Source of the DNA: a virus
Length of the DNA: 51,636 nucleotides
IMG/VR virus record: IMGVR_UViG_3300025087_001438
Span: 1 to 51,636 of that record
Reading direction: 5' to 3' (one strand)
In this document: piece by piece, positions 1,618 to 24,948 of the stretch
Position numbering within the stretch: position 1 is the first letter of the stretch
Layout of the letters: each line of letters opens with the position of its first letter
Program-made: the position numbers and the translations under genes
Notes under the pieces: model-generated
The model's input: the letters and a program-made list of their open reading frames with translations, nothing else
Databases searched by the model: none
Told to the model about the DNA's origin: nothing

Positions 1618-1655
1618 ACTATTGCCTATCTAGTACTTTCCCACAATAGTCTGTT
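1618..1655 (-). promoter_or_regulatory. Late promoter copy 1 (AGACTATTGT element)
   Basis: Minus strand. The ten-base core AGACTATTGT sits at 1643-1652, immediately after a TAA stop. TTGTGG would be the -35 box, then 17 nt, then AATAGT as -10, which ends 6 nt before the ATG at 1611. The same core occurs six times in intergenic positions. The -10 assignment is my inference. Confidence 0.6.
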
Positions 1656-2517
1656 ATCGCCATTGCCTAATAGCCCCTCGCGGGTCGGCATTGTTGATAA
1701 TAGTTTGGGGGTTGGAGTTGATGTCTATAAGCGTGGTGGAGGTGGAAGTACTAGAAGTAGATGTCGAGCTAGTCGAGGTGCTATTGGTCGTACTGGTAGA
1801 TATGGAGGTGGAGTTGGAGGTCGAGGTGCTAATCGAACTTGATGTGCTAGAGGTGGATGCGCTGGTGGTACTGGCTGAGGTACTACTGGTCGAAGTGGAA
1901 GTAGCATCACTGGCGATAAAAGTAGCTACTACGGCCGCATAAGTGTTACTACTGGGTCCAGTCCATTCAGCTTGGTACTGAGCTTGGGTAGATACGGTCT
2001 TACTTTCTATGGATAGGGGGTGGCCAGCGATATCTATTTGAGTATAGTTGGAAAAACCGCTGCCGACTCCAGTATCACCTGAATTGCCGCAAGTCACCCC
2101 GACGACCAGTTCATCGCCGTAACTGGTAACGGCTGTATAGCCGGAGGTAACAGGTGTTCCACCAGCGGTTTGACCACTTACTTTATCAAGCACTCCACTG
2201 GTCAAAAGTCCCGACCATTCTTCAACGGCAATTCCTACGCTGCTGGCTATCGAATACTCGATAGTAACGGTATGCCCCGCTCCCCCGACTATATTAGAGG
2301 CGTACCAGATTTCGGCTGTGTTGCCGCTGGCACCCGCCTGTTCCCGTGCTACGGCTCTGGTGAAAGCATTGCCTTTATTGTCGCTGACAGTGATAGTACC
2401 GCCACTGGCTGAACCTTGCCCCGCCGCTATGATTAAAGTATTACCATTAGTGGAGATGAAAGAGGCCGTAGTTTGGGGTGAGCCACCTGTTTTAGTAATA
2501 GTCTGGATAAGTGTCAT
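1654..2517 (-). CDS. Structural protein with beta-sandwich domain and S/T-rich tail
   Basis: A 287-aa protein. Residues 1-203 look like a beta-sandwich domain rich in G, T, V and A. Residues 205-262 are almost pure Ser/Thr. A 25-residue end follows, starting TTLIDINSNP. The STTLID junction recurs in the 3291-4553 protein, so the two share a C-terminal module. The ATG overlaps the preceding stop (ATGA) and has AGGGGTGAG as ribosome binding site. Probably a surface-exposed tail or fibre component. The S/T tract is a plausible O-glycosylation target (inference). Confidence 0.7.
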   Translation of the reverse strand: MTLIQTITKTGGSPQTTASFISTNGNTLIIAAGQGSASGGTITVSDNKGNAFTRAVAREQAGASGNTAEIWYASNIVGGAGHTVTIEYSIASSVGIAVEEWSGLLTSGVLDKVSGQTAGGTPVTSGYTAVTSYGDELVVGVTCGNSGDTGVGSGFSNYTQIDIAGHPLSIESKTVSTQAQYQAEWTGPSSNTYAAVVATFIASDATSTSTSSTSASTTSASTSSTSSSISTSTSNSTSISTSTTNSTSTSSTSTSSTSTSTTLIDINSNPQTIINNADPRGAIRQWR

Positions 2518-3275
2518 CTGCTCACCCCTATAGTCGCATGAGGTTGGAGGTTGGTAATTATGCCACTGGTTGAGCTTGTGGAGGTGGAGTTGGAAGTTGA
2601 GCTAGTGGATTGGGAGGTCGACGAGGTTGAAATTGAGGTCGATAAGCTGGTAGACACCGAAGTGCTGGTGCTGGAAGTGGAAAGGCTGGAACTAGTTGAG
2701 GTCGTAACTGATACGGATGTGGTGGTACTGGTGGAAATTGATGATGACGTGGAGGTTGAAGTTGTGGCGTCGGTGTAATAAACAGTCATGCGGATGTGGT
2801 CGATATAGGCGGTAATCGTACCTCCTCCCGTAGGAGCCTGTTTGCGCTCAAATTCTGCGACAATACCATTTATGGTCGCTCCACTTGGAATGGTAAAACC
2901 AAAATTTGTTGCCTTTAGATAGTGGCTTATAGCTGTATCCACTCCGTCAGTCCAAACAGTTGCAATTACTACACCAAAGGTTGTGGCATTGATATCTGCG
3001 TCTGTCCAAGACATCCCCCACAGATTAGAGGAGCTACCAAAAGAAACATAAGCTTCAGTCAAGGACCAAGCAGTACTAGCGCTTTGGTCGGTACCACTGA
3101 TAGTCCCACCCTTGACAATTCTTATCGAATAATCTTTAGGGATAGCTTCAACAGAAAATACTGTGGCATAAGAGTCATCACTAGTTTGGGAATTGTTAGG
3201 ATTACTCCAAGTCTTTGTTCCAATATCAGCAGAATCAGCAGTCGTGCTCGGACTCAGTGGCCCCTGAGAAGCGAT
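2514..3275 (-). CDS. S/T-rich structural protein with a likely ATC start codon
   Basis: The reading frame is open from just after the TAG at 3291 and would give 253 aa. There is no ATG, GTG or TTG near the strong ribosome binding site AGGGGGAGG (minus strand, about 3284-3292). The ATC at 3275-3273 is 8 nt after GGAGG and would begin MASQGPLSPS, which looks like a natural N-terminus. The nearest conventional in-frame start is a TTG at 3062, with no ribosome binding site, and it would cut the domain. The protein has a globular domain (1-180), an S/T tract (about 185-240) and a short end. It is either a rare initiation codon or a base error. Confidence 0.6.
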   Translation of the reverse strand: MASQGPLSPSTTADSADIGTKTWSNPNNSQTSDDSYATVFSVEAIPKDYSIRIVKGGTISGTDQSASTAWSLTEAYVSFGSSSNLWGMSWTDADINATTFGVVIATVWTDGVDTAISHYLKATNFGFTIPSGATINGIVAEFERKQAPTGGGTITAYIDHIRMTVYYTDATTSTSTSSSISTSTTTSVSVTTSTSSSLSTSSTSTSVSTSLSTSISTSSTSQSTSSTSNSTSTSSTSGIITNLQPHATIGVSR

Positions 3276-3290
3276 GGTATTACCCTCCCC

Positions 3291-4553
3291 CTAATTATTC
3301 CAAACATTAAAAGACGGTATGGTGACTCTGGGTATGGTCATGTAATCAATTAGGGTGGTGGAGGTGCTGGAGCTTGTGGAGAGTGATGAGCTAGTCGAAC
3401 TAGTGGAGATTGATGTCGATACTGAGGTACTAGTGCTGGAAGTGCTGATTGAGCTGGAAGTTGAGCTGGTGGACAGCGAAGTCGAGCTACTGGTGCTACT
3501 GGTGCTGATAGAAGTCGACTGACTGGTAGAAATGCTGGATGACGTGGAACTGGTAGATATGGAAGTACTGGTTGAACTACTGGTACTGCTGGTACTGATT
3601 GACGTACTGATACTGGTCGAGATGCTGGAAGAAGTACTAATAGAACTAGAGGTCGAACTGGTGGAGGTACTGACAGAGGAACTGGTCGAGCTGGTAGAAA
3701 CCGAAGTGGACATTGACGTACTGGAGGTACTGATGGAGGTCGAAACAGATGAAGAAGTACTGGAAGTCGATGTGGAGATAGAGCTGGAGGTACTAGAGGT
3801 GCTTATGGAACTACTAGTACTGGAAGTGCTGATACTGGAACTAGTACTGGATGTTGAGATAGAGGTGGAAATACTACTGGAGGTGGAACTGGTGGAGATA
3901 GAAGAACTAGTAGAAATTGAGGAGCTAGTGCTAGAAGTACTAGTAGAGATTGAGCTACTTGTAGAGCTTGTGCTGATGGACGTACTAATCGAACTGGAAG
4001 TAGAGGAGGTGCTTATCGAGGTTGAGATACTGCTAGAAGTACTGCTTGTGGAAATTGAAGTGGAGGTGCTAGAAGTAGAGATTGAGCTGGATGTGGAACT
4101 AGTACTAGTAGAGATTGAACTCGACGTACTAGAAGTAGAAATGGAAGTGGAAATCGAAGAACTGGTTGACGATGTTGAGATAGAGGTGGAAATAGAGCTT
4201 GAGGTGGAAGAAGTACTTATTGAGCTACTAGTCGAGCTGGTGCTAATCGAACTGCTCGTACTGCTGGTACTGATAGAACTACTTGTGCTGGAGGTAGATG
4301 TAGAAATAGAAGAACTGGTACTGGAGGTGGAAATAGAGGTCGAGATACTCGAACTAGTTGAGCTGGTAGAAATAGACGAACTGGTACTGGAGGTGGACGT
4401 GGAAACACTGCTACTTGTCGAACTAGTGGAAATAGATGTAGAGCTACTAGTAGAAATTGATGTTGAACTTGATGTGGAGGTTGTTGTAGCATCCGCAACA
4501 TTAGCTGACCCTTGACCGAAGTATGGTTGGCCAAAATAATTTGAGCCAAACAT
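3291..4553 (-). CDS. Mucin-like S/T low-complexity virion protein
   Basis: A 420-aa protein. It starts MFGSNYFGQPYFGQ, an N-terminus type found on phage tail-associated proteins. Residues 23-398 are then built almost only from Ser and Thr with a regularly spaced Ile, Val or Leu, in units such as ISTSSTSSS. It ends LIDYMTIPRV followed by a short tail, resembling the end of the 1654-2517 protein. Codons are heavily varied between repeats, so the protein repeat is conserved better than the DNA. Probably an extended, possibly O-glycosylated, fibre or brush (inference). Confidence 0.7.
   Translation of the reverse strand: MFGSNYFGQPYFGQGSANVADATTTSTSSSTSISTSSSTSISTSSTSSSVSTSTSSTSSSISTSSTSSSISTSISTSSTSSSISTSTSSTSSSISTSSTSSSISTSSTSSSISTSSTSSSISTSISTSSTSSSISTSISTSSTSSSISTSTSSTSSSISTSSTSTSISTSSTSSSISTSISTSSTSSSISTSISTSSTSSSISTSTSSTSSSISTSSSISTSSTSSSISTSISTSSTSSSISTSSTSSSISTSSTSSSISTSTSSTSSSVSTSISTSSTSMSTSVSTSSTSSSVSTSTSSTSSSISTSSSISTSISTSISTSSTSSSTSTSISTSSTSSSISTSQSTSISTSSTSSSTSLSTSSTSSSISTSSTSTSVSTSISTSSTSSSLSTSSSTSTTLIDYMTIPRVTIPSFNVWNN
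3360..4487 (-). repeat. Coding repeat: 1.1-kb Ser/Thr tract
   Basis: About 375 codons of degenerate ISTS/STSSS-type repeats. On the plus strand the same DNA reads as a long open frame rich in E, L, V and D, which is a by-product of the repeat. Related shorter tracts lie at about 1732-1905, 2562-2775, 23466-23597, 24112-24270 and 50602-50787. Confidence 0.9.
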
Positions 4554-4555
4554 GG

Positions 4556-5095: not shown

Positions 5096-5104
5096 AATTT
5101 CTCC

Positions 5105-5902: not shown

Positions 5903-5910
5903 ATATTGTC

Positions 5911-5949
5911 AGTATGATATAAAAACAGAATAAACCACAATAGTCTGTT
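5911..5949 (-). promoter_or_regulatory. Late promoter copy 2 (AGACTATTGT element)
   Basis: Core at 5937-5946, directly after the TAA of the glycosyltransferase gene. TTGTGG, 18 nt, then CATACT as -10, which ends 8 nt before the ATG at 5902. It marks the boundary between the sugar operon and the tail genes. Confidence 0.6.
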
Positions 5950-6898
5950 AGAGGGGGGTGATGGTGTTTTCTGGCATTTTATAAATCTCACCGTCTTTGG
6001 GGCAAGTAGCAGTAAAACCGTCTTTGGTGAGCATAATCTCCTTGCACTTAGGGCATCTATAACCCCATATATCAAAGCCCTTACCCCACTTTTCATGGTT
6101 TTGGTTCCACTGCAACTCAGGTATTATTAAACTCTTTATATCTTCCTCATCTCGGACAGACTTGAACGAACTAGACCAGTGATGCCATACCCACGACCTA
6201 GTCGTACCGACACATCTATAGCCAAACATCCTTGCTCGGCAACTGTAATCATAATCTTCGCCTCCGCCTGGGTAATATCGTTCATCTAACATACCGACCT
6301 CTAAAAACTTGGCAGTATCAATTACTGAAGCGTACATCGTCACCCCGTCAATAACCGAACCTGGTTTAATGGTCAGATGTTCGTTTACATAATGTTCATC
6401 TTCAATAAGATGCCGCCAATCCTCGTCAGTATATTTATCTTTATAAGGGATGATGTCAAAGTCATCCCCTGATTCCCTGCCGACTGACCAATCCGCCAAT
6501 CTAATAGAGGCGGGGTTTACAATCATGGCGGGGGTAGTAGGAGTGGCTTCTTCAACTTTCCTGAAAGTTTCTATCACCCCATCCCACCAAGCTGGATGAA
6601 TTAGTTCCACATCGTCGTTCAGCATTAGAAAGTAAGGGGTATCGACTAATCTTATACCCAAGTTGGTTGCTTGGGCGAACCCCAAATTACCAGTGTAATG
6701 AACATCCGACTTTGGAGTTCTTATCACCATTAAATTTTTATATTGGTTTCGTAGCTTAGTAGCGTCTATACCGTTGATAGATTGGTCTATTATGTAGGTA
6801 TAGAAGATATTGTCCGTGTACTCGTACAGGGTTTGGAGCATCCGCTGTACGAGGTCTGGACGAATAATAGGACAAATTACGGTTAAAAGCTTAGCCAT
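5948..6898 (-). CDS. GT2-family glycosyltransferase with C-terminal zinc ribbon
   Basis: A 316-aa protein. It has a GT-A fold start (TVICPIIRPDLV), the metal/nucleotide motif in FLMLNDDVEL, and a C-terminal catalytic-loop type GGGEDYDYSCRARM. An extra zinc-ribbon-like end carries CPKC and a second Cys about 15 residues later. Its 5' end overlaps the preceding gene by 8 bases. It is the last gene of the sugar operon. Donor and acceptor are unknown. The zinc ribbon is unusual for the family and may hold a virion protein partner. Confidence 0.8.
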   Translation of the reverse strand: MAKLLTVICPIIRPDLVQRMLQTLYEYTDNIFYTYIIDQSINGIDATKLRNQYKNLMVIRTPKSDVHYTGNLGFAQATNLGIRLVDTPYFLMLNDDVELIHPAWWDGVIETFRKVEEATPTTPAMIVNPASIRLADWSVGRESGDDFDIIPYKDKYTDEDWRHLIEDEHYVNEHLTIKPGSVIDGVTMYASVIDTAKFLEVGMLDERYYPGGGEDYDYSCRARMFGYRCVGTTRSWVWHHWSSSFKSVRDEEDIKSLIIPELQWNQNHEKWGKGFDIWGYRCPKCKEIMLTKDGFTATCPKDGEIYKMPENTITPL

Positions 6899-7220
6899 TT
6901 TCGGGGGCTTTGTAGATAGCCTCCCCTTGATTGTACTTGAAAAGCTCTGCCTCTTCTACCTCTACCACATCGTCCATTATGAAACCCAGTGTATCTAGTA
7001 TTTCTGGCTTGGTAATCCACTGGCGGGTCTTGGCTACTTCGTCTATTAAATAAACCTTGTCTCCCCCTTGTTTTGTTCGGACTACTCGCTTGCCTTCCGG
7101 TAAAACTCGTGCTGGTTCAACAGTTCCTGTAACTTCTACAGTCGTACTATCTATTTCAACCCCTTCAGCAGCTAGTTTGTCTATTAGTTTATGTAATTGT
7201 TCTACGTCTTCGCGTGTCAT
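6891..7220 (-). CDS. Hypothetical protein between glycosyltransferase genes
   Basis: A 109-aa protein. The N-terminal 30 residues form a predicted helix. The C-terminal half carries a GDKVYLIDEVAKTRQWI motif, a pattern I associate with small domains found beside or inside phage and bacterial sugar genes. The start has AAAGGAGG 8 nt upstream and overlaps the previous stop by one base (TAATG). Possibly a sugar-binding or scaffold partner (inference). Confidence 0.55.
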   Translation of the reverse strand: MTREDVEQLHKLIDKLAAEGVEIDSTTVEVTGTVEPARVLPEGKRVVRTKQGGDKVYLIDEVAKTRQWITKPEILDTLGFIMDDVVEVEEAELFKYNQGEAIYKAPENG

Positions 7221-7699
7221 TACGAACCTCCTTTAATTATATTTAGATTGGCAAATTCGCCATGGTATTTAATTGCTGCTTTATTATATGCTCTGGCTGC
7301 CTCTTTCACATCATCAAATCTCCCTAAAAATATTGAAGAACTATTAGACCAAATACGGGCTATCCACTTATTTTGATGTCGGTATACGCCTTTGTAACCA
7401 GATTTATTATTTCGATTGGGTTTAGGTCTATTATGCTGGTTTTCGGCATGGGTACAAATACGTATTTCGGAGCGTCTATTATCTGTTCTAATGCCATGTC
7501 TATGGTCAACTTCTTCGCCTGGCTGGGCGTTCAAAAGCAAACGGTGCATTTTAATAATTTTCCGCCTGCCATTAATAATCTTATCAGTGATTGCATATCC
7601 ATCTTTATTTAGATGCCAGCCACCAATAGAGTTAACTAACTTTAAGTCCTTATCATCGACTAAAACTTTAGTCCCATTTTTGAGGACAACCTCAGTCAT
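7220..7699 (-). CDS. HNH endonuclease with AP2 DNA-binding domain
   Basis: A 159-aa protein. An HNH_3-type core runs at about 50-90 (KMHRLLL, then EEVDHRHG and TDNRRSEIR). An AP2-type domain follows at about 101-155 (GYKGVYRHQNKWIARI). This is the usual layout of a free-standing phage homing endonuclease. It is wedged between two sugar genes with overlaps of 8 and 1 bases, so it rides in the operon rather than taking part in the pathway. Confidence 0.85.
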   Translation of the reverse strand: MTEVVLKNGTKVLVDDKDLKLVNSIGGWHLNKDGYAITDKIINGRRKIIKMHRLLLNAQPGEEVDHRHGIRTDNRRSEIRICTHAENQHNRPKPNRNNKSGYKGVYRHQNKWIARIWSNSSSIFLGRFDDVKEAARAYNKAAIKYHGEFANLNIIKGGS

Positions 7700-8666
7700 C
7701 TATAACCTCCTGAATTTTACTCATCATACTATCTAAAGTATACCCCCTATCTATTAAATACTGTCTATAGCTGATGGAATCATATTCTTGGCTAGTAATC
7801 TTATCTATGGCTTGGTCTATGGAATCCCATGTCAGACCGGGCCAGATATCATCAGCTCCAAAAAATCTATGGGGCACGACTTTAATACCCTTCGCCATTG
7901 CTTCAGCGATTGCATAAGAAAACCCTTCTTTCACAGAACCATGCAGAAGAAAATTTTTATCCTCTAGAAATTCGTCAACAGTTTTACCCTCTAAAAGAAT
8001 ATTAGTAAACTCTATATTTAAGTTATGATGTTCTACAAAATCATCAAAATATGCATACTCCCAGTTGGAGTCGCTTCGTTGTCCCAGCCAGTGAATCTTA
8101 TACCTTGGGTCTATTTGTTGAAGTTTCAAGATAACTTGTAAAAGTAGATGCGTTCCTTTAGAGTTCCATTTCTCAGAAACGATAGCTATATCAAAACCCG
8201 GACTACGCTTTTTAAACTTATAGCGACTTAAATCAACTCCACAGGGAATAGTATGAAACTTGGTTTTATCGGTCAATCCAGGTAGGTTAGCAATATTTGC
8301 GACCTCCCTTATATGATTGGCTATAAAAATAACATCATCCACTAAACTCCATCGAGCGGCATGTTGATGGCCTTGCCAAATCTCGATATCAATCGGTCTA
8401 ACGATAATTCTCTTATCTGATAAATCCATGTCGTACAAACTCCACGGTTTGTAATTGGCATTATCTGCCAGTAATGCTTCCCCTGGATTTGTGGCGGAAA
8501 CGATATTGTTATCAGCGGTGTCCATCCATATTAAATCTGCCCATTCATTAGCTAACTGAGGATTCCAGTATCTTTCCGTCTTAACTTCGTGTCCCTGTTT
8601 ACGCCACCAGTTAGCCATATCACTGGTAAATTTCCCGAAATATGGGTCTGTAAGAAGAATTTTCAT
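7692..8666 (-). CDS. Glycosyltransferase, GT-B fold (GT4-like)
   Basis: A 324-aa protein. It has an N-terminal Rossmann start (KILLTDPYFGKF) and a C-terminal nucleotide-sugar half with the E-x7-E type segment HGSVKEGFSYAIAEAMAKG. It overlaps both neighbours by 4-8 bases. It should transfer a sugar from a nucleotide donor. Specificity cannot be read from the sequence. Confidence 0.8.
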   Translation of the reverse strand: MKILLTDPYFGKFTSDMANWWRKQGHEVKTERYWNPQLANEWADLIWMDTADNNIVSATNPGEALLADNANYKPWSLYDMDLSDKRIIVRPIDIEIWQGHQHAARWSLVDDVIFIANHIREVANIANLPGLTDKTKFHTIPCGVDLSRYKFKKRSPGFDIAIVSEKWNSKGTHLLLQVILKLQQIDPRYKIHWLGQRSDSNWEYAYFDDFVEHHNLNIEFTNILLEGKTVDEFLEDKNFLLHGSVKEGFSYAIAEAMAKGIKVVPHRFFGADDIWPGLTWDSIDQAIDKITSQEYDSISYRQYLIDRGYTLDSMMSKIQEVIDD

Positions 8667-9550
8667 AAAATCCCCTGTACTATGTTCAATAAATCTTCCA
8701 CCCGATTCTTAACCTTTAGTTCCTTTTGGGCATACTCGTAACCATGGGTGGCTAGATTTTCCCGGTCTTCGTCAGCTTCTAGCCAGTACTCAATACTTAA
8801 TAGACAGCTAGGTATATCGTAGAAATAACCAACATAGGAACGCAGAACACTACTAATCAAAGGCTGATAGCGATGGAGTACAAATCCCCCACAACACATG
8901 ATTTGGGCTGGTCTATCGCTCCAATATCCAGCCTCGATTGTATGGTCTATGGATAAGATTACTTTGGCTCTAGCGTATAGTTCTGGCAGACCTTCATCCA
9001 TTATTGGGGGGCGGACGTCTTTGAAGCCCTCCCAAGCATTAACCGAATGTATTACTAGATTAAACTTCTCATCTACGGCTTTAAGAGTTTCGTTTCTTTC
9101 AGTAGCAAAATCAAGATAACTTCCCGTAAAGAGCACATCTATGTCTTTCTCGATAGGGGTGGGATGTTTGTCTAGGAAACTAGGGGCGAAGTCTTGGCTC
9201 AGCCATTGCCAATTAGGGTATTTACTATCAGCTATACGTTTGGATAAGTAGAGGTCAGATTCTTTGACTAGGCGTTCGTGCCATTCTTGACCGTCTGCTT
9301 GGTAATCGTAACTCCAGTAGACAACTGGTATATTCAGTCCTGTGTGTAAGTCTCTTATAAGGTTCTCACCATATCCGTCCCATTGGGACATCAGAACAAA
9401 ATCATATCTTTCATTTAATATAGGTCGTTCCTCTCTCTGACATCGTACAACCTCATGCCCTAATTCCTCCAACGCATCAGAGATATGGACTTCGTCGCAG
9501 ATAGAATTATCCCAGCCTCTACCAAAGTTCCCAAAAAATACTATTTTCAT
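8663..9550 (-). CDS. CgeB-like glycosyltransferase
   Basis: A 295-aa protein. The N-terminus KIVFFGNFGRGWDNS, the central DIDVLFTGSYLDFATERN and the C-terminal CCGGFVLHRYQPLI followed by a final helix match the CgeB / Glyco_trans_1_2 type of GT-B enzyme. Its start overlaps the upstream gene by 4 bases (ATGA). It is probably co-translated with its two GT-B neighbours. Confidence 0.75.
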   Translation of the reverse strand: MKIVFFGNFGRGWDNSICDEVHISDALEELGHEVVRCQREERPILNERYDFVLMSQWDGYGENLIRDLHTGLNIPVVYWSYDYQADGQEWHERLVKESDLYLSKRIADSKYPNWQWLSQDFAPSFLDKHPTPIEKDIDVLFTGSYLDFATERNETLKAVDEKFNLVIHSVNAWEGFKDVRPPIMDEGLPELYARAKVILSIDHTIEAGYWSDRPAQIMCCGGFVLHRYQPLISSVLRSYVGYFYDIPSCLLSIEYWLEADEDRENLATHGYEYAQKELKVKNRVEDLLNIVQGIL

Positions 9551-16222: not shown

Positions 16223-17021
16223 ATTTCTCCTGCTTATACTTAATCTTGGCTGGGTCGGTAGGTATCATATCCTTATTCATCCATACATCCGAGCCGAGTT
16301 CATCGCGGTCAAAGCCATGCTTGCTCTTAAAGTATTCGATGTTGTTCTGGTAATAGTCTTGGTGGGTGCCATCAAAGGTACCTGATTTATTGCTAAAGTG
16401 GTAGACTAGCACATCTCGCAGGCGCATAGGTGTAACTCCCGCTAGGTTGATGCGGGTCTGTAGGTCAGTGTCGCTATTCGATGACCAGGGGTCGAAGGCT
16501 GTATCGTAGCCACCTAGGAAGTCCCATAGGTCTTTGCGGATAAAGAACGGCAGGTTAAAGCCAGTTTCTTCTTTAATCTCATCTTCCTGATGTCGTACAA
16601 ATAGATTAACTACATCTGGCTTAAATTCCTCCACAGTCAAACCTCCATCGAGCTTCAAGAATGGGGGAGCGGACCCTGCATTATTAGTAGGCTCTACTAA
16701 GTTAGGCGAAAAGACTGGATAGTCAAATCGCAGATTCTTATCCCAACTTGGTGCGTAGTACATATCCGAGTTACTAACCATAATGTAATCGGTGTCGGGT
16801 GCGACTATCTGGACACCTATATTAGTACTTAAGCATTGTCCCTGTTTAGGGGTATGAATATGGTTGACCTTGAGATGTTTTAAATCTGGTTTATGGGAGG
16901 TGCCGTTAGTCATCACGATTATTTGTCCCTCAAACCCACTATCTCTTAAACTCTCAACACACAATCGAAGATACTCACCATCTACTTCAAAAAGGGAAGG
17001 AATAACAACTGAAACCTTCAT
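16209..17021 (-). CDS. GT2-family glycosyltransferase
   Basis: A 270-aa GT-A protein. VSVVIPSLFEVDGEYL opens the fold. YIMVSNSDMYYAPSW carries the DxD-equivalent, and LWDFLGGYDTAFDPWSSNSD is the catalytic-loop region. Its start overlaps the GroES gene stop as ATGA. Confidence 0.8.
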   Translation of the reverse strand: MKVSVVIPSLFEVDGEYLRLCVESLRDSGFEGQIIVMTNGTSHKPDLKHLKVNHIHTPKQGQCLSTNIGVQIVAPDTDYIMVSNSDMYYAPSWDKNLRFDYPVFSPNLVEPTNNAGSAPPFLKLDGGLTVEEFKPDVVNLFVRHQEDEIKEETGFNLPFFIRKDLWDFLGGYDTAFDPWSSNSDTDLQTRINLAGVTPMRLRDVLVYHFSNKSGTFDGTHQDYYQNNIEYFKSKHGFDRDELGSDVWMNKDMIPTDPAKIKYKQEKYAGL

Positions 17022-17299
17022 TTGACCTCCAATACAGTACCCAGAACATCAAAAACCGATATTAAAATAAAATCTTCATCGTTTAACTTAATTTCAGTAG
17101 CAGAGTAACTCTTATAAAGAATTATACTTTTTGGCTCAAATACTAAATCTGAGTAATCACCATTATTAATTACTTCTGCTGAGTTATCCTTCTTAACTTG
17201 GACTTTTTCTGGTAAAAGAATTCCAGATTTGGTCTTAGCTTCTTTGGGCTTTATAACCCTTGCGAATAGATAATTTTTAGATGGTTTTATGGTTTTCAT
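17018..17299 (-). CDS. GroES-like co-chaperonin (Cpn10)
   Basis: A 93-aa protein, close to the usual length of about 95. It shows NYLFARVIKPKE at the N-terminus, KTKSGILLPEK (mobile-loop region), AEVINNGDYSD, SIILYKSYSATEIKLNDED and the end FDVLGTVLEV, all in the Cpn10 order. Phage co-chaperonins work with host GroEL to fold capsid proteins (known for T4 gp31). This one lies inside a sugar operon with ATGA overlap to a glycosyltransferase, so late folding of capsid or of the large S/T proteins is a plausible role. Confidence 0.85.
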   Translation of the reverse strand: MKTIKPSKNYLFARVIKPKEAKTKSGILLPEKVQVKKDNSAEVINNGDYSDLVFEPKSIILYKSYSATEIKLNDEDFILISVFDVLGTVLEVK

Positions 17300-17306
17300 A
17301 ATTCTC

Positions 17307-17822
17307 CTATATCTTTAACTTTACTAACACGCCAAGACTTTCAATCTCCTGCCTAAGAAGGCTGGTATCTGCCTCCGTTTTATCTTCAAACAGGCGAGTG
17401 TGGAACTCAATATCTAACAGACTTAATCGCTGGATAGTGCCTTCGTCAATCATCTTCCTAAGCACTGCGAACTCCGCCCCTTCCGCATCAAACGAACAAG
17501 CGATAGTCGCTTCAGGTAGTTTAGCTACGAAACGAGAGAAATCTATACAAGGGACAATTACTTTTCGGTCAGGGGATTTCCTAAGGCTGCTAATATGTGA
17601 AGCGTCATTCCTGTCACCGATAGCAAATTCCACTTCCCCATCCTCTGTCCAAACAGCCTTCTTCACCCAATTAACCTGAAAGGGAAATCGTTTAATAGAC
17701 TCTTCCACATTTAGTTCGGTGTTCGGTTCAAAAGCATAAACTATCCAACTTTCGTCCATTAGGGGGGCGTAGTAATCTAGGGCTTTGCCGACGTAAAAGC
17801 CACAGTCCAAGAAATATTTCAT
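17307..17822 (-). CDS. FkbM-family methyltransferase
   Basis: A 171-aa protein. It begins FLDCGFYVGKAL (motif I variant), then VYAFEPNTELNVEESI, and CSFDAEGAEFAVLRKM, the EGAE motif typical of FkbM-type O-methyltransferases. It is shorter than many family members. It overlaps the deacetylase gene by 4 bases. Confidence 0.78.
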   Translation of the reverse strand: MKYFLDCGFYVGKALDYYAPLMDESWIVYAFEPNTELNVEESIKRFPFQVNWVKKAVWTEDGEVEFAIGDRNDASHISSLRKSPDRKVIVPCIDFSRFVAKLPEATIACSFDAEGAEFAVLRKMIDEGTIQRLSLLDIEFHTRLFEDKTEADTSLLRQEIESLGVLVKLKI

Positions 17823-18403
17823 TGGACAACCTCACTAACGAACTTGAAGTTATCAGTCTGCTTAACTTTCTCCAATAGTTGTGGAAGGGTTTCGTCTATT
17901 CCGTTACCCATACACGACCAAGTATGACCATGCACAGAGTTTTCACCCACTTTATATACAGGTAATTCTTCGGGTCGGCGGTCATCGTTGTAGGCTTGGT
18001 CGGCCACCCAGAACTCGTTGTCGACTAGCCATTTGTATATATCGTCACTTATTTGCCAGCCGGGTGCCTTGAATCCCATAGCGAAATACACATCTAACAA
18101 CTCTTTTCTACCATCTTGATTCATCCAACCATCAAAATCGTCATAACTCATTTTCTCGCACTCGTAATTAGAACTGTGAGTAAAACCATGTTGGGCAATT
18201 TCCACCCAATCACGGTTAGTTTTAGACCACTCTAATAGTTCTATGGTAGATTCATCAGGAATAGTAAAGAGTGTAATCTTAAAAGCTGGGTTAACTTCTT
18301 TAAGTTTCAGAAGTTCCCCTCTACAATCCCGTGATTGACACATATCAGAGATAACATGCGAGCACCCGAAGTCGTCACTGTCCCAGACTTGGTAATCACT
18401 CAT
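17819..18403 (-). CDS. Polysaccharide deacetylase-like (NodB-type) protein
   Basis: A 194-aa protein. DSDDFG (8-13) supplies the paired aspartates. QHGFTHSS (His72, His76) is the metal-binding HxxxH. FKAPGWQISDDIYKWL matches the conserved PGW motif, and VHGHTW (His158, His160) supplies the late histidines. All key residues look present, so it should remove N- or O-acetyl groups from a sugar or sugar polymer. No signal peptide, so it acts in the cytoplasm. Confidence 0.78.
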   Translation of the reverse strand: MSDYQVWDSDDFGCSHVISDMCQSRDCRGELLKLKEVNPAFKITLFTIPDESTIELLEWSKTNRDWVEIAQHGFTHSSNYECEKMSYDDFDGWMNQDGRKELLDVYFAMGFKAPGWQISDDIYKWLVDNEFWVADQAYNDDRRPEELPVYKVGENSVHGHTWSCMGNGIDETLPQLLEKVKQTDNFKFVSEVVQ

Positions 18404-19091
18404 AGTTAGCCAACTTTTCTAGCCACTCATTCGGATATTGTTCGTTCAACAACTTGGCGTTTGGTACAAGGCAGTGGCCGCCAATCTTACCTTCGGGGGG
18501 GTCAAGTATGTACCTCTGCGCCCAATTCTCCCCCAGTTCGTGATAGAGCTTGTTATAATCACGGTCAAACTCTTTGAGCAATTCAAAGTCCATATCTATC
18601 TTGTCGGCTACAGACTTTTCATAGTCAGTCCATATCAAATTAATTCCATACTTAGCTATAGAGCGAATCTTTAGAAACTCAGTGAAATCGGAATTAAAAA
18701 CTTGCCTAGTATTTATATACTTATCAGTGAACAAACCCGTGAAAAAGAATCCTTCTTCATTATCATTAACACCTATCCATCTAGGCATTGTACGAATACT
18801 AAGTTCTAGTTCTGGGTGGCGACCCTCGATAGGTGAGTGAACAGCACCTAGTATCTGTTTAGTAGTACCTATTGGGACGGTGGAGTAAATGATTGTATGA
18901 CTAGGGTTAAAACGGTGCTGATAAGTAATCACATCGTCTACAAACGACTCACTAAACGGGAAACAGATATGAAGCACCTCTAGCGGACTCATAATATCCT
19001 TGGATTCTAAATCTAGGGTTTGAGCATCTTTAAAGATAGCCTTAATAGCTTGTCCAATCTCCCCCATTCCCACAATTAAATGCTTATCCAT
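18396..19091 (-). CDS. Short UDP-glucose/GDP-mannose dehydrogenase-like protein
   Basis: A 231-aa protein from the ATG at 19091, which has GGAGGTGGAG just upstream; a longer frame to 19127 lacks this. It has LIVGMGEIGQA (NAD loop), HSPIEGRHPEL, and GGHCLVPNA with Cys207 at the catalytic-cysteine position. Family members are usually about 400 residues, and the C-terminal UDP-sugar domain is missing or reduced. Activity is uncertain. It could be a minimal dehydrogenase or a binding protein. Confidence 0.72.
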   Translation of the reverse strand: MDKHLIVGMGEIGQAIKAIFKDAQTLDLESKDIMSPLEVLHICFPFSESFVDDVITYQHRFNPSHTIIYSTVPIGTTKQILGAVHSPIEGRHPELELSIRTMPRWIGVNDNEEGFFFTGLFTDKYINTRQVFNSDFTEFLKIRSIAKYGINLIWTDYEKSVADKIDMDFELLKEFDRDYNKLYHELGENWAQRYILDPPEGKIGGHCLVPNAKLLNEQYPNEWLEKLANYE

Positions 19092-19686
19092 GCTCCACCT
19101 CCACCGAGTATAAATCATGATAAGCATCTTTTCTGGGAAGGCGTTCGTGCGTCCACTTTAAGTTTAAAGAATCTAAGAATTTCTCCCACTTGTCTTTGGC
19201 ATAAACCGCCCCATAACCATCATCACCGTCATCATTTATCTGGTCTGTGTTGCCTAATCGCCAGAAGGTGAATATAACTAGCCTCCTAGCCACTCTCAGG
19301 GCCTCGCTAACGGGTGTTTCATAGCCATTGGTGTGTTCCAGCACATCTTGCATGATAACCACGTCAAACGAGTCGTCCAGGTGTCTGAGTTTCCTAACAT
19401 CACCTATAGAGAAAATTCTCATTGGTTTAACTCGCTGGTTGGCCACTCGCACAAACCTTTCGGAATAATCCTCCCCCCTATATTTAACTGATGGCCCGAA
19501 CTCTAGGAAATGCTCAAAATTATGTCCGGGCCCACAGCCTGCGTCTAGCACCCACTCCCCACTTTTAAGATACTTGCCTATAAGGTGTCTTAGGGGTGAG
19601 CCAGGCCCCTCAGAATACGAGAGCATATAGTTAGCCGCACCTTCATCCGTCGCCATATGCTTATCCCAAAAATTTTGGCTCTTCAT
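19084..19686 (-). CDS. SAM-dependent methyltransferase
   Basis: A 200-aa class I enzyme. Motif I is VLDAGCGPGHNFEHFL. RGEDYSERFVRVANQRV follows, then DVVIMQDVLEHTNGY and ALRVARRLVIFTFW. It overlaps the next gene's start by 8 bases. Probable sugar or glycolipid-type methyltransferase; substrate unknown. Confidence 0.8.
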   Translation of the reverse strand: MKSQNFWDKHMATDEGAANYMLSYSEGPGSPLRHLIGKYLKSGEWVLDAGCGPGHNFEHFLEFGPSVKYRGEDYSERFVRVANQRVKPMRIFSIGDVRKLRHLDDSFDVVIMQDVLEHTNGYETPVSEALRVARRLVIFTFWRLGNTDQINDDGDDGYGAVYAKDKWEKFLDSLNLKWTHERLPRKDAYHDLYSVEVEHG

Positions 19687-20363
19687 GAAATAACTTCTCT
19701 CTTGAACATACCAACCAAATCGCCAGCCTCAGGGTCAAACTTTCCCAAGTCATTGACATAATCCTCAGTTGTCACATAAGTAGCATTGGGATTGAGATGA
19801 ACTCTGTTACCTGATGAACCAGCCGACCAGCCCTGACCCCTGCCCCTGCGCCAAAAGCCCAAAGATATTTGGGTGGAAAAATAGACCAAGTCATTATCCC
19901 AGGAGTTATTAGGCTTCAAATTATCAAATAGGGATTGTAAGTTCGCTAGGCGTATGACTGAACCAGGGATATAAGCTATCTGAACAGCATAAGGAACTGT
20001 AGACTTCTGTTCACTATTGGGAATCACCCCCTCCGTGTAATTATCCCCCAATCTATAGCCGTAAATCTTGTTTGACCAATCATTAATAGCTGTGGCCGAG
20101 GACATCACTGCCAGTTTTCTGAAATAGGGGCTTTTTTTGAACAGTCCCATCTGAGAGGAGAAATAGCCAGAATTGACCAAACAATCAGCCTCCACCATAC
20201 AGACGAAGTTCTCGTGCCCCGTTTCTAACCCCATAACAGCATCTATCCAGTCACTAGCCACTAGTAATTCCGAATCTATGTCCTTGAGTTCCCGATGAAG
20301 GTTTTCATAGGTCAGTTTGATAACGTTCGGTTCATGTGAGTCTTTTATGATGACACTAAGCAT
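19683..20363 (-). CDS. GT-A-type glycosyltransferase-like protein
   Basis: A 226-aa protein from the ATG at 20363, chosen because GGAG lies 8 nt upstream. LSVIIKDSHEPNVIKL begins the fold and NFVCMVEADCLVNSGYF holds the DxD-like site. The later half is divergent. The start lies within the end of the preceding gene (8-base overlap). Confidence 0.65.
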   Translation of the reverse strand: MLSVIIKDSHEPNVIKLTYENLHRELKDIDSELLVASDWIDAVMGLETGHENFVCMVEADCLVNSGYFSSQMGLFKKSPYFRKLAVMSSATAINDWSNKIYGYRLGDNYTEGVIPNSEQKSTVPYAVQIAYIPGSVIRLANLQSLFDNLKPNNSWDNDLVYFSTQISLGFWRRGRGQGWSAGSSGNRVHLNPNATYVTTEDYVNDLGKFDPEAGDLVGMFKREVIS

Positions 20364-21138
20364 AATAATTCTCCACATCTTGTTTAGAGGCATACTCCAG
20401 TAACTGAACCTTATCGTCGCCTTGTTCTAAGGCGGGGTGGTAAATATCGTTGTGTCCAGTATCTTCGGGTTTGAAGTTTTCGGGGTAGCCCCACCTATCA
20501 GTATCTGGAGTGCCGAATAAGTGCAGACACCGTACTTCCGTGGCAAAGGCCGTTTTGTAACCAGCCTCCCTGAGCTTGCCGCAGACATATTTTTCTTCCT
20601 GTCCCCTGCCTGGGGCTTCACGATGCCACCCCCCCACCCTAGAAGTAACTTTAGTGTCCATTATCCGGTAACTGCCACCTGGATGGGGAAAATCGACTAT
20701 TAAGTCATTGTCGTGTCCTTCGAAGATATTACCTGTGCCTATCATCACTTGGGTGCGGGCGGCAATCGCCTTATAATCTGGGAAATACTGCATCAGTTCG
20801 TAAAGTTCTTCCAACCAGTCCTTATCACCCTTCTTGGGCATAATCAGGCAATCATTGTCTACACAGACAAAGTAATCACTACGGGTACATTCTTGTAATA
20901 ATAGATTTCTAGCCGCCTCCAACCCAAGGTTAGTCTTAATCGGGATAAATTCGTCTATCAGGCCATTATCGTGGAGAGACTCTAGGAACTCAGGGGTGTC
21001 GCCGTTTGAGCCGTTGTCTAACACTACCAAGCGGAAATTCTCTCTGTTAGTGTTGCGGTGAATAGTGCGGATAACCAGCTCGGTCATTTTGGGGCGGTTC
21101 CAGGAGACAAGGTGTAAATCCAAAGGCTTAGTCAACAT
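20356..21138 (-). CDS. GT2-family glycosyltransferase
   Basis: A 260-aa protein from the ATG at 21138, with GGAGAG upstream; the frame is open further up but that part lies inside the next gene. LDLHLVSWNRPKMTEL, LVVLDNGSNGDTPEFL, TNLGLEAARNLLLQ and YFVCVDNDCLIM (DxD) are in GT-A order. Overlap with the upstream gene is 11 bases. Confidence 0.8.
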   Translation of the reverse strand: MLTKPLDLHLVSWNRPKMTELVIRTIHRNTNRENFRLVVLDNGSNGDTPEFLESLHDNGLIDEFIPIKTNLGLEAARNLLLQECTRSDYFVCVDNDCLIMPKKGDKDWLEELYELMQYFPDYKAIAARTQVMIGTGNIFEGHDNDLIVDFPHPGGSYRIMDTKVTSRVGGWHREAPGRGQEEKYVCGKLREAGYKTAFATEVRCLHLFGTPDTDRWGYPENFKPEDTGHNDIYHPALEQGDDKVQLLEYASKQDVENYYA

Positions 21139-22006
21139 CGTATATCTCTCCAAAGTGTTCGTAGACTTCTTCGTGCGCCCGTGGATATTGAATGTATAAA
21201 AGGGCGTCTTTACTCTCGTCAGTTGGGTGGAGTGGTAGAGAATGGTTATCACGGGTTAAAAGATAGAACTGTAAGTGGTCATCACCCCACGGATTACCTA
21301 GTGATAGCCCATGGCGGTATACTCCATCCTGAAACGCCGTTTCCGGGTTTTCAGTATAGGTGTACTCCCAGTGGTCTCTTTCGGGGTCTATCTTCATCGG
21401 GAATTTAGAGTCAGCCGCAAACTGATAGCAGTTGACTACATCAGGAATACGATACTTGGGGTCAGATGCCCACAAATCACGGCGGAAAATAAATGACCCT
21501 GCCCCGATATGTCCGCTCCTGAACCACTCGTGCCCATCACCTTCAATTTTAGGTCTGAAAGTTCTTCTAATAGCCGTATGATGGTCTGGGTAGTAAACGA
21601 TACTGCCAAAGTTAAATATCTTGTAATCGGGATAGTCTTTAATAGCCTGATTCAGTTCTCTCAAGTAATGGGAGCTGTACTCATCATCGCAGTCCAGCCA
21701 GCACAACCACTCGCCCTTAGCTTCTTCCATACCCCGATTACGGGCAATAGCTCGGTTCTGATTCTCCTGATGAATTACCTTTATCCGCTTATCGCTGTCA
21801 GCAAACTTTTGCAGTATTTCAGGGGTATTATCGGTGCAGCCATCATCCACCAATATCAGCTCCCAATCAGGGAATTGCTGGTAAATTATTGACTTGATGG
21901 CTCTTTGGACTTCTCTAGCCCGCCAATGTCTATGTTCAGCATCCGTGACACCTTCGTCTTTGGCGGAGTACACAGGAATTATGACACTAAACTTCGGTTT
22001 TAACAT
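21128..22006 (-). CDS. GT2-family glycosyltransferase
   Basis: A 292-aa GT-A enzyme with textbook motifs: FSVIIPVYSAKDEG, ELILVDDGCTDNTPEIL, NRAIARNRGMEEAKGEWL and LCWLDCDDEYSS (DxD). A domain of about 110 residues follows. It starts inside a 47-codon gene that bridges it to the upstream GT-B gene. Confidence 0.88.
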   Translation of the reverse strand: MLKPKFSVIIPVYSAKDEGVTDAEHRHWRAREVQRAIKSIIYQQFPDWELILVDDGCTDNTPEILQKFADSDKRIKVIHQENQNRAIARNRGMEEAKGEWLCWLDCDDEYSSHYLRELNQAIKDYPDYKIFNFGSIVYYPDHHTAIRRTFRPKIEGDGHEWFRSGHIGAGSFIFRRDLWASDPKYRIPDVVNCYQFAADSKFPMKIDPERDHWEYTYTENPETAFQDGVYRHGLSLGNPWGDDHLQFYLLTRDNHSLPLHPTDESKDALLYIQYPRAHEEVYEHFGEIYDVD

Positions 22007-22130
22007 TTATTGTCCTATTCATAATATATTTGGTTACTTCTTCTTTGGAATGTAGTTTGACGGGCTTTTCTCCCTCAAAGTAAACTCTGTAAATACCCGA
22101 ACGAGACCTTCTAACCTTCGGTTTCGACAT
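21987..22130 (-). CDS. Small hypothetical protein bridging two glycosyltransferase genes
   Basis: A 47-aa frame, ATG at 22130, TAG at 21987. It overlaps the end of the GT-B gene (20 bases) and the start of the GT2 gene (20 bases), and fills what would otherwise be a 104-base gap. It is basic (SKPKVRRSRSGIYRVYFEG). GGCGGGTG precedes the ATG. Coding status rests on fit within the overlap chain. Confidence 0.45.
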   Translation of the reverse strand: MSKPKVRRSRSGIYRVYFEGEKPVKLHSKEEVTKYIMNRTINVKTEV

Positions 22131-23418
22131 TTTCACCCGCCTTTATAAGTGGTTCTATATATCTTCTAAACGTATAATCCGGATTACGCTTTGTCCTGAC
22201 CCACGTTTTCGCCCTGAAAACCTTATCGTTCTCCGAGTAGTATTTCAAAGCCTTTGCCATGTCCTCATAATATCCATCAATATTCTCGTAGGTGGTATTA
22301 ATCTCGCCGTTATAACCCGAAATAGCAATGTTAGCCCCGTCAAACTGCTTATAAAGGGCGTTCTTACCGTATATTTGTCTGAAAGGGGCGAAGTCCTGAT
22401 TTAGAATAACAAAATTACCCTTCAGCATCGCTTCCTGGGCAATTAAGGAATAAGTTTCACTCTTACTCGCCAGTAAAAAGACATTAGACAGAGTGAACAA
22501 ATCCAGTACTATTTCGTGGGGGATTTCCATCTGGGCGATATCGTCGAACTCAGACATAAAGGTAAGGCAATCTTCAGCATCCTGCTCTTTGGCTAGTTTC
22601 TTCAAGTCTGCCCTGTAAACTACTTTGTCGTCACCGGTGGACTGGAAGTCGCAGAATACCAGATGGGCGGTGGTACCTATACGTTTCAGGGCGGCTATCA
22701 AGCGGACATTGCCCTCGGCATACTTACCCCTGTCTAGGCGGATTGGCAGTATCATCAGTACTTCCACATTACCCAGTTTCTTTTTATCGTATAAGCGCTG
22801 GACTAAGGGGTGCATACCTTCTGTCGGGTCGGTAGAATGGGGGACTTCAACCACTTGGTCTTCTTCAAAATTGAAGTTACGGGCTACTCTGGGAATATCA
22901 TAAGCGTTAGGATAGCAGATAATCGAGTTGGCGAAGGGGGAGTTCAGGGCTTCGGCGTATTTCTCACCGTACATATTACGTTCTTGACTAACTATTGTCG
23001 GATTAGTAGCTGAGTGAATCCAGTGAAGCCAACGAATTGAGGGGCGGTCTTGAGCTAGTTTTCGGGCGGCTAAGTTCAGTACCGTGTAGTCGGGTAAGAA
23101 TATTAAATCATGGGTGATGACCACTGCCCCATCAGGTAAAATGTCGTTTAATTGCTGGTAAGCTAAATCCACAATTTCCTCGATGTTCTCAGCTTTATCA
23201 CTAGGGTCATGTAGAGCGAACGGGTAAGTTAGTTTGGTTTCTATTCCATAGTGGGGGGTGTCTTCTGGTGGCTCCCAGCCTTCGGAAGCTATTAAAACGG
23301 GCTGATAGCCAGCCCGCTGAAGCATCTTAATCTGTTCCCCTACAACTAGTATTGGGCTGAAAGAACGTAGGTAGGTGGAGAAGTTGCTGAGAATATAAAC
23401 AGTTTTATTTGTTCCCAT
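22111..23418 (-). CDS. Glycosyltransferase, GT-B fold (GT4-like), first gene of the sugar operon
   Basis: A 435-aa protein. VYILSNFSTYLRSFSP is the N-terminal loop. EVLMILPIRLDRGKYAEG begins the donor domain. LLASKSETYSLIAQEAMLKG is the E-x7-E motif. The ATG has no clear Shine-Dalgarno sequence and lies 21 nt after promoter element copy 3. This gene heads a run of about 25 genes on one strand with overlaps or gaps under 10 bases, down to 5948. Confidence 0.82.
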   Translation of the reverse strand: MGTNKTVYILSNFSTYLRSFSPILVVGEQIKMLQRAGYQPVLIASEGWEPPEDTPHYGIETKLTYPFALHDPSDKAENIEEIVDLAYQQLNDILPDGAVVITHDLIFLPDYTVLNLAARKLAQDRPSIRWLHWIHSATNPTIVSQERNMYGEKYAEALNSPFANSIICYPNAYDIPRVARNFNFEEDQVVEVPHSTDPTEGMHPLVQRLYDKKKLGNVEVLMILPIRLDRGKYAEGNVRLIAALKRIGTTAHLVFCDFQSTGDDKVVYRADLKKLAKEQDAEDCLTFMSEFDDIAQMEIPHEIVLDLFTLSNVFLLASKSETYSLIAQEAMLKGNFVILNQDFAPFRQIYGKNALYKQFDGANIAISGYNGEINTTYENIDGYYEDMAKALKYYSENDKVFRAKTWVRTKRNPDYTFRRYIEPLIKAGENVETEG

Positions 23419-23439
23419 TAACCCAAGTTAAACACCAGC

Positions 23440-23452: not shown

Positions 23453-23462
23453 AAGCAGATTT

Positions 23463-23684
23463 TTAGACAGATGTAGTGGTGGAGGTCGAAGTACTGGTGG
23501 AAACTGAAGTTGAACTGCTAGTGGAACTGGTCGAGATTGAAGTTGAAGAACTAGTCGAACTAGTAGAAATGGAGGTGGAACTAGAGGTTGAAGTCGTGGT
23601 ATTTCCACCATGCCCACGCAAGCGAATGGTCGAATAGCCAGCGATTACACCAAACCATTGGCTGAGGTTGGCGGGCGAGGACAT
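23463..23684 (-). CDS. Small S/T-rich head-module protein
   Basis: A 73-aa protein. The N-terminal 29 residues (SSPANLSQWFGVIAGYSTI) look like a virion anchor. Residues 30-72 are almost all Ser/Thr with spaced Ile or Val, as in the tail proteins. The ATG directly follows the stop of the decoration-like gene. Probably a capsid-surface peptide. The tract is a plausible glycosylation target. Confidence 0.65.
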   Translation of the reverse strand: MSSPANLSQWFGVIAGYSTIRLRGHGGNTTTSTSSSTSISTSSTSSSTSISTSSTSSSTSVSTSTSTSTTTSV

Positions 23685-24032
23685 CTACTCCTCCTTGTAA
23701 TTGATTTGTAAAAAGTAGTTGTTGCCATTTCCAACCGTAGAAGTCACTTTAATGACTTCATTTCTAGCACCACTTATTACTACTGGTACATAACCTGATG
23801 CAGGGGTGGCGGCTGGGAAGATAGTATGGATAGTATTGTTGGAAGTCCCGAAGTAAACTCGGATTTTACCAGAGTTTCCCTCAGTGTTGATGTAAATACC
23901 TTTAACAGCCGCTAATTTACCCGACGTAGGGGTAATAATAGTTGCAGCTGTTTGGTTAGTGTCGTATTCGTTGGTGAAAGAAGTATCGAAGTCGTGGCGA
24001 TTAGCCACACCAGTTAATGATGAAACTGCCAT
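23685..24032 (-). CDS. Probable head decoration protein
   Basis: A 115-aa protein, beta-rich, without cysteines or catalytic motifs (AAVKGIYINTEGNSGKIRVY). Size and position downstream of the capsid gene suggest a capsid-surface or head-completion protein. AGGAG lies before the ATG. Not tied to a named family. Confidence 0.6.
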   Translation of the reverse strand: MAVSSLTGVANRHDFDTSFTNEYDTNQTAATIITPTSGKLAAVKGIYINTEGNSGKIRVYFGTSNNTIHTIFPAATPASGYVPVVISGARNEVIKVTSTVGNGNNYFLQINYKEE

Positions 24033-24071
24033 AATAAGTTCTCCTTTAGCTTAATTAGCAAGGGCGGGAAA

Positions 24072-24085
24072 GGGGCCGCAGCCCC
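24072..24085 (-). terminator. Intergenic GC-rich hairpin after the S/T-rich head protein gene
   Basis: On the minus strand GGGGC-TGCG-GCCCC follows the stop of the 24109-24948 gene, then TTTCCC. The U-tract is short, so it may be an attenuator or mRNA-stability hairpin rather than a full terminator. Confidence 0.4.
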
Positions 24086-24108
24086 AATCCAATCCCCATA
24101 TTTTGTTT

Positions 24109-24948
24109 TTACGGCGTGGTCGTCGTAGATGTTGATGTTGAACTCGTGCTTGAGCTGGTGCTCGAAGTCGAGCTGGAAGTACTAGATGTAGAACTTGAAG
24201 TGCTGGACGTCGAGGTCGTAACCGTCGTGGTAGACGTAGAACTTGACGTAGAGCTGGTTGAAGTCGTAATCGAGTACTCAGGCACATCATTGAGCGTCGT
24301 GCCGTCTGACCAGTTATCGTAGTTGTAAGCGATGATGAGAGCCGTGGTGTTATTCGGCGTGGTTGCCGGAGTTACCAAGTTTCTCTCAACCGTGCCACTG
24401 GCTACGACAGTTGGTGCGTTTTGAAGTGTCAGAGCGCCATACGGCGTGGTACGCGAATATACCTTAACAGTGGTGTTATTCTGCCACAACCGATGGTTGA
24501 CACCTAACTTGTTGGTCGTGCCAACCGAGAAAGTAGCTGCCGTGGATAGTTGGGCGTCAATATTGACGCTAGTGACTGTCCTAAAAGCTAGGTTCCCATT
24601 GACTGCGCTCGAAGCGTCCGCCGCAAAGCGGAAAGCTTCAGAGATAGTCTTGCCTTCAACGTTAGTACCTGTAATGGTCACGACTGATTCTTGAATATCA
24701 CCAGTCGTGCCGCCGGGCGTAACGCTCAAAGCTCGTGGCACATCAGGGTCGGTTAGACCGGACGTAATCGTCTGGTCAGCGCCAACCGTAGCCGCTGTAG
24801 CCGCCAAGATTGCGGTGGACGTTCCTGCATTAACCTCATTGGAAGTATCGGTGTAAGCGAAAGTTGTACTATAGAGGTTCTTGTAGTTAAACGTACCGAA
24901 AGTGTGGCGACCCGCAATCGGCCAGGTCTTTGCTCTGTAAATTGCCAT
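24109..24948 (-). CDS. Head fibre/decoration-like protein with S/T-rich tail
   Basis: A 279-aa protein encoded right after the capsid gene. Residues 1-225 are beta-rich (DPDVPRALSVTPGGTTGDI). Residues 227-277 are a Ser/Thr tract ending TTTTP. It is the second S/T-tailed protein of the head module, so the particle surface, not only the tail, may carry these tracts. Confidence 0.7.
   Translation of the reverse strand: MAIYRAKTWPIAGRHTFGTFNYKNLYSTTFAYTDTSNEVNAGTSTAILAATAATVGADQTITSGLTDPDVPRALSVTPGGTTGDIQESVVTITGTNVEGKTISEAFRFAADASSAVNGNLAFRTVTSVNIDAQLSTAATFSVGTTNKLGVNHRLWQNNTTVKVYSRTTPYGALTLQNAPTVVASGTVERNLVTPATTPNNTTALIIAYNYDNWSDGTTLNDVPEYSITTSTSSTSSSTSTTTVTTSTSSTSSSTSSTSSSTSSTSSSTSSTSTSTTTTP

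Follow-up and report, generated by a model that had tools for sequence, protein, structure and literature searches.

The DNA analysed here (the window, 51,636 nt) is the IMG/VR genome IMGVR_UViG_3300025087_001438 of an uncultured, podovirus-like bacterial virus, in which six tracts of serine and threonine (S/T tracts) occur together with a large sugar operon. The genome is seemingly complete and circular, the first 14 bases of the contig being repeated as its last 14; accordingly, the open reading frames (ORFs) at 3-404 and 50104-51636 are one protein spanning the contig ends, and both pieces match a single ORF in relatives. An earlier note on this DNA had placed the six tracts in structural-type proteins. 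All six lie in frame at the positions claimed, while the structural role of their carriers follows from gene order and homology, by which they are most likely particle proteins. The tracts measure 44-378 aa each, are 87-98% S+T, and total 658 aa, with 380 serines and 209 threonines (Table 1). Tract scores are 33-213 in the real proteome, whereas the best score reached on shuffling the whole predicted proteome 500 times was 9. Furthermore, serine and threonine codon usage in the tracts equals that in the rest of the genome, both serine codon boxes included, and the tracts are therefore not DNA microsatellites; together with the shuffles, this rules out an origin by chance or from a microsatellite.

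Between the head and tail modules lies the sugar operon (5948-23418, about 17.5 kb), which comprises 23 same-strand ORFs of at least 80 aa, referred to below by their start coordinates. It encodes ten glycosyltransferases (GTs), eight of them above the Pfam cut-off and two less directly supported (5948, below the cut-off, and 22111, recognised by its fold), together with six methyltransferases, a GDP-mannose-4,6-dehydratase-like SDR enzyme and a DegT aminotransferase. The earlier description of about 25 genes with about ten GTs, methyltransferases and sugar-nucleotide enzymes thus holds in content, at a count of 23 ORFs; the deacetylase it included (17819) is less secure, with a weak match to DUF2334. 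Dehydratase 11666 and aminotransferase 12559, the latter with PseC as its top NCBIfam match, under the cut-off of that model, could plausibly supply an amino-deoxy sugar nucleotide. In relatives, distant ones included, the operon has a homologue of GT 5948 (29-73% identical) at the corresponding end.

To place the tracts and the operon in their family, we gathered relatives by major capsid protein (MCP) and terminase scans, down to about 31% MCP identity. In eight long genomes with tracts (G000, G001, G006, G008, G009, G018, G027 and G031), the operon lies between the tract gene that follows the MCP gene (the post-MCP gene) and the tail tract gene. About 28 records have a post-MCP gene with an S/T tract, here called a tag, and a homologue of GT 22111 (gt22111) is found nearby in all that have enough downstream sequence, except G014; G002 and L066 are too short for its presence to be judged. 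In about ten records with an untagged post-MCP gene, neither gt22111 nor gt21128 was found, and the post-MCP protein terminates at the point where a tag would otherwise follow. Specifically, in G013 this protein stops exactly at the tag start, the tail protein is without its tract, and no operon is present; like other tract-less relatives, G013 retains the MCP, post-MCP and tail genes in the same synteny. A gene left over in G013 (23990-24583) was considered as a GT and then withdrawn, since profile comparison does not relate its family to GT2, and the single GT locus scored in tract-less records rests on that leftover-gene family. The comparative check proposed earlier, whether tracts and operon occur independently, thus gave mostly the opposite result, in that they co-occur.

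The linkage extends beyond the MCP family. A gt22111 profile search returned 79 loci, with identity down to 35%. A same-strand tract is present in the 10-kb flanks of the gt22111 homologue at 59 of the 79 loci, but at 0 of 134 random viral loci (1.08 Mb; p = 1e-35, relatedness among loci ignored), and at 49 of the 79 it lies within 1.5 kb upstream. Starting from the tracts, we used a degenerate pattern to collect 50 S/T-tract records and compared them with 50 random records, drawn by two patterns, limiting the comparison to records of at least 14 kb. GT2 or GT4 is present in 28 of 50 tract records versus 8 of 45 random records (p = 1.4e-4), and, after removal of seven relatives of the window, in 21 of 43 versus 8 of 45 (p = 0.003). 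For the presence of at least two GTs in records of 18-70 kb, again with window relatives removed, p is only 0.1. The degenerate pattern was loose and returned mostly Thr-rich linkers; L184 is an apparently spurious frame.

Alignment of the post-MCP tract from 17 phages (3264 compared positions) reveals that its residue order, TSSTSSSTSSTSSSTSSTSTSTTT, is largely kept while the codons are scrambled. There are 2234 synonymous differences, 580 of which are serine switches between the AGY and TCN boxes, and only 94 of the 3264 positions (2.9%) show a change between Ser and Thr, compared with 47% expected under free S/T exchange. Because residue order is kept despite scrambled codons, with few Ser-Thr swaps, the alignment indicates purifying selection on the tag as protein, including the choice of Ser or Thr. 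Such selection fits recognition by an enzyme, and it also fits a structural constraint.

In contrast to this conservation within one carrier, the carriers themselves are diverse. When compared with their tracts masked, 149 tract ORFs across relatives fall into 28 carrier families with no detectable similarity to one another, and the six carriers of the window belong to six separate families. The tract is C-terminal in 131 of the 149 ORFs, and it is likewise at the C-terminus in most carriers adjoining head or tail genes, a neighbourhood that suggests virion membership. Distant relatives have other carriers and other tract wording (for example, STTTSTSTST on small tryptophan-rich proteins), with the same GT linked, and composition varies by lineage among TSSTSSS, TTTSTST and SSSSS. 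Because carriers and wording change while the same GT stays linked, the tract behaves as a portable tag tied to the gt22111 enzyme family. Some relatives carry many tracts: G027 (52.6 kb, loci L260-L262) has eight, five of them of 145-280 aa, and in G058 (L453-L455) the ORFs of 2046 and 2507 aa each contain many.

The AlphaFold2 model of 22111 superposes on GT4 enzymes such as TarM, PimA and BshA with Z of about 15, and the motifs RLDRGK and SETYSLxxQE are conserved among its homologues. A tblastn search of 50,697 INPHARED phage records returned no gt22111 homologue and no match for gt5948, these being the two of the ten operon GTs that were searched. On the acceptor side, the AlphaFold2 model of the post-MCP protein (mean confidence score pLDDT 87) shows a beta sandwich followed by a low-confidence C-terminal tail. 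No solved structure resembles this fold at Z >= 8, and an identity as a decoration protein was accordingly not established; from its gene order beside the MCP, it is a probable head-surface protein.

Taken together, we consider that the phage probably glycosylates its own virion through the S/T tags. This interpretation, which the earlier note had put forward, is supported by the linkage of tracts and operon and by their joint absence, and we infer it from sequence. The operon would make at least one modified nucleotide sugar through the 4,6-dehydratase and the DegT aminotransferase, perhaps followed by methylation. Soluble GTs would then build O-glycans on tract Ser and Thr residues in the host cytoplasm, the tracts serving as portable acceptor tags, mostly C-terminal, on unrelated surface proteins of head and tail. 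In particular, 22111 is the leading candidate for the initiating GT, which would start the glycan on the tag; 21128, 20356 and other GTs would extend the glycan, and the methyltransferases would cap it. The resulting coat on the particle could provide protection, surface attachment or receptor mimicry. A virion protein never crosses the membrane and would thus require a cytoplasmic pathway; no clear membrane segment (Kyte-Doolittle mean over 1.9) was found in about 148 ORFs of eight homologous operons, whereas small proteins elsewhere in the window, taken as positive controls, score high.

Several points weigh against this interpretation. A glycan has yet to be seen on any of the proteins, and the carriers are assigned to the virion from gene order and homology. 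The fold likeness of 22111 is to GT4 enzymes generally and does not identify a protein O-glycosyltransferase. The MCP tree needs only two changes (1-2 across bootstraps) to account for the tract/operon pattern, so that co-occurrence within the MCP family cannot be counted as many independent events. The tagged record G014, a 16.8-kb fragment, has no GT within 5 kb downstream, and a lineage with GT homologues of 41-44% identity (L480, L481, L483, L485, L486, L488, L489 and L525) has no tract. Finally, neither GT2 nor GT4 was detected in 22 of the 50 tract records, and, tracts of looser composition without detected GTs being common among phages, a tract alone does not imply a sugar system. In the GT lineage that has no tract, the GT directly follows a small conserved protein, KNQGxxxCYxST...

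In one alternative, the tracts are structural and unglycosylated, forming extended or beta-rich fibres, spacers or adhesive low-complexity tails; the GTs would have a different target on the virion, their linkage to the tracts reflecting only shared head-tail ancestry. The small number of independent events in the clade, the tracts found elsewhere without GTs, the regular recurrence of Ile/Val at intervals of 9, 4 and 11 residues within the 378-aa tract, and the strict placement of Ser versus Thr, which suggests structure or specific recognition, all accord with it. Against it, tract composition and carriers differ by lineage, yet the same GT family stays linked, and we regard a purely structural role as unlikely.

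A second alternative, raised in the earlier note as a block to superinfection, is that the operon remodels the host surface (O-antigen or capsule, with superinfection block or serotype change) and that the tracts are flexible linkers. Many phage GTs do act on the host surface; gtrABC seroconversion cassettes, for example, encode phage GTs that act on O-antigen and need membrane-embedded GtrA and GtrC. Among the PHROG families, GtrB-like GT domains weakly match GT 21128, and phage S/T tracts also occur without detectable GTs. However, the eight operons encode no membrane flippase GtrA, GtrB anchor or polytopic GtrC, and their ORFs include no flippase, polymerase or polyprenyl-phosphate transferase. 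Because no membrane protein is found in the eight operons, O-antigen conversion is disfavoured and gtr-type host conversion is rejected as the principal explanation. Remodelling of the host surface would also leave unexplained the shared neighbourhood of tracts and operon and the residue-by-residue conservation of the tag, and it is in our judgement improbable. The further possibility that the GTs modify phage DNA, producing glucosylated or hypermodified bases, a role of phage GTs cited in PMC12619734, is highly improbable, since ten GTs, DegT, an SDR enzyme and six methyltransferases exceed what we would generally expect a DNA pathway to need, no base-modifying synthase was recognised among the scanned proteins, and the tracts would be given no role.

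Virion self-glycosylation through S/T tags has relatives among known systems. Closest in kind are the mycobacteriophages Che8 and relatives (Freeman et al. 2023, Cell Host Microbe), whose GTs glycosylate virions; according to PMC11256854 and PMC12619734, which cite that study, the C-termini of capsid and tail-tube subunits carry the glycans. Maravista, a Che8 relative, is reported to have a few GTs. As far as these accounts describe it, the Che8-type system has phage-encoded GTs in common with the present one, in which the candidate acceptor tracts are C-terminal in most of the presumed virion proteins. The present system differs in its 23-gene operon with sugar-nucleotide enzymes and methyltransferases and in its long dedicated tags on several unrelated proteins. 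Closest in logic are the serine-rich-repeat adhesins of Gram-positive bacteria with their accessory Sec locus, in which the acceptor carries long S/T-rich regions and the same gene cluster supplies the two to ten GTs that glycosylate it (PMC6973325). Here, too, S/T-rich acceptors are encoded beside their candidate GTs; unlike the adhesins, they belong to a phage, and one genome encodes several of them. Domain scans of the operon found no SecA2, SecY2 or Asp domains, and a Pfam scan of all operon GTs found no DUF1975, the domain of the GtfA/GtfB pair; nor does GtfA appear among the fold matches of 22111, a list generic for GT4, though the two may still be related. Chloroviruses and mimiviruses, which are giant viruses infecting eukaryotes, use their own GTs and rare-sugar pathways for particle glycans (PMC4691112, PMC10117803), and their acceptors are capsid or fibril proteins rather than portable S/T tags. 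The terminase, portal and MCP of the window belong to tailed-phage families, and not to the giant viruses (nucleocytoplasmic large DNA viruses). Our literature search found no report of S/T tags paired with phage sugar operons, and none of the known systems we found joins portable, dedicated S/T tags to a sugar operon of large size in a phage.

Phage virions are usually regarded as bare protein. If the interpretation is correct, there are environmental phages that coat themselves with glycans, which would affect how they adhere, recognise receptors and decay, and they do so with a soluble, lipid-free O-glycosylation toolkit that acts on a simple, transplantable tag. The tag and the marker GT, 22111, together provide a direct sequence signature by which such phages can be found and tested. 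Whether the window represents a widespread group of uncultured tailed phages with a modular glycan-tag code, in which short C-terminal S/T tags are shuttled among unrelated virion proteins, a dedicated GT-B family starts cytoplasmic O-glycans, and the self-made coat covers head and tail, is a broader proposition that we regard as evenly poised.

Table 1. Tract carriers, operon genes and head-tail genes of the window
Position	Strand	Feature	Basis or remark
1654-2517	-	Protein with near-C-terminal S/T tract	Tract 1732-1902 (57 aa)
2514-3062	-	Protein with near-C-terminal S/T tract	Tract 2565-2765 (67 aa)
3291-4553	-	420-aa protein, N-terminus YFGQPYFGQ, C-terminal tail of 20 aa	Tract 3354-4487 (378 aa)
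23463-23684	-	73-aa ORF, mostly S/T tract	Tract 23469-23600 (44 aa); unrelated to other carriers
24109-24948	-	Post-MCP protein, beta-sandwich domain and disordered C-terminal S/T tag	Tract 24115-24267 (51 aa)
50104-51636	-	Tail/neck protein with internal S/T tract	Tract 50605-50787 (61 aa); continues into 3-404
22111-23418	-	GT-B (GT4-like) glycosyltransferase, first operon gene	Fold
21128-22006	-	GT2 glycosyltransferase, second of the core operon genes	PF00535, 105 bits; adjoins 22111 in tract-bearing relatives
20356-21252	-	GT2 glycosyltransferase	PF00535, 52 bits
19683-20393	-	Operon protein without family assignment	Homologue is the only operon-like gene in some tract-less relatives
19084-19686	-	Methyltransferase	PF08241, 52 bits
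18396-19127	-	Putative NAD-dependent sugar dehydrogenase-like protein	Sequence motif only; no family match; conserved in relatives
17819-18403	-	Putative polysaccharide deacetylase-like protein	DUF2334, E = 0.005, weak; conserved in relatives
17307-17822	-	FkbM-family methyltransferase	PF05050, TIGR01444
16209-17021	-	GT2 glycosyltransferase	PF00535, 25 bits, above cut-off
15743-16222	-	Methyltransferase (Methyltransf_24)	PF13578
15069-15746	-	GT2 glycosyltransferase	PF00535, 50 bits
14161-15072	-	GT4-type glycosyltransferase	PF13692, 42 bits
13653-14180	-	Methyltransferase	PF08241
12559-13656	-	DegT/DnrJ/EryC1 aminotransferase, amino-sugar nucleotide	PF01041, 272 bits
11666-12628	-	GDP-mannose/dTDP-glucose 4,6-dehydratase-like enzyme	PF16363, 202 bits; gmd model below cut-off
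11130-11765	-	Methyltransferase (Methyltransf_24)	PF13578
10543-11133	-	Methyltransferase	PF08241
9547-10542	-	GT-B glycosyltransferase	PF13524, 39 bits
8663-9550	-	GT-B glycosyltransferase	PF13524, 55 bits
7692-8666	-	GT4-type glycosyltransferase	PF13692, 30 bits
5948-6898	-	GT2-like glycosyltransferase, last GT of the operon	PF00535, 19.6 bits, under 23.3 cut-off
406-1611		SU10-type adaptor	
25005-25937	-	Major capsid protein	phrog_371, E = 8.5e-26
27628-29814		Portal	Tailed-phage family match
29859-31376		Terminase	Tailed-phage family match

No close cultured phage was found, the terminase and MCP matches in INPHARED being only about 25-31% identical, and a genome scan for the host gave distant matches only (best 43%). 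No integrase was found among the scanned window proteins, a scan that left some small ORFs outside. Within the operon, 19683-20393 has no Pfam, NCBIfam or PHROG match, its profile comparison with the GT2 family was empty, and no GT assignment could be supported. A GroES/Cpn10 homologue (PF00166) lies at 17018-17299 on the minus strand; it is present in G001 and absent from the other relatives compared. A homing-endonuclease-like gene with HNH/AP2 domains is inserted at 7220-7699 (minus strand), with homologues in G001 and G008 elsewhere in their operons, and a 109-aa protein (6891-7220, minus strand), with a weak match to one unknown PHROG only, is kept beside GT 5948 in long relatives. In the 378-aa tract, the rare residues other than Ser and Thr, mostly Ile, are spaced 9, 4 or 11 apart, a pattern suggestive of a repeat fold or of a unit for recognition. 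A short tail after the tract, LIDxxxxPR..., is common to several tract proteins (1654-2517 and 3291-4553 in the window, and proteins of G001, G008 and G018), and is possibly a shared anchor or recognition peptide.

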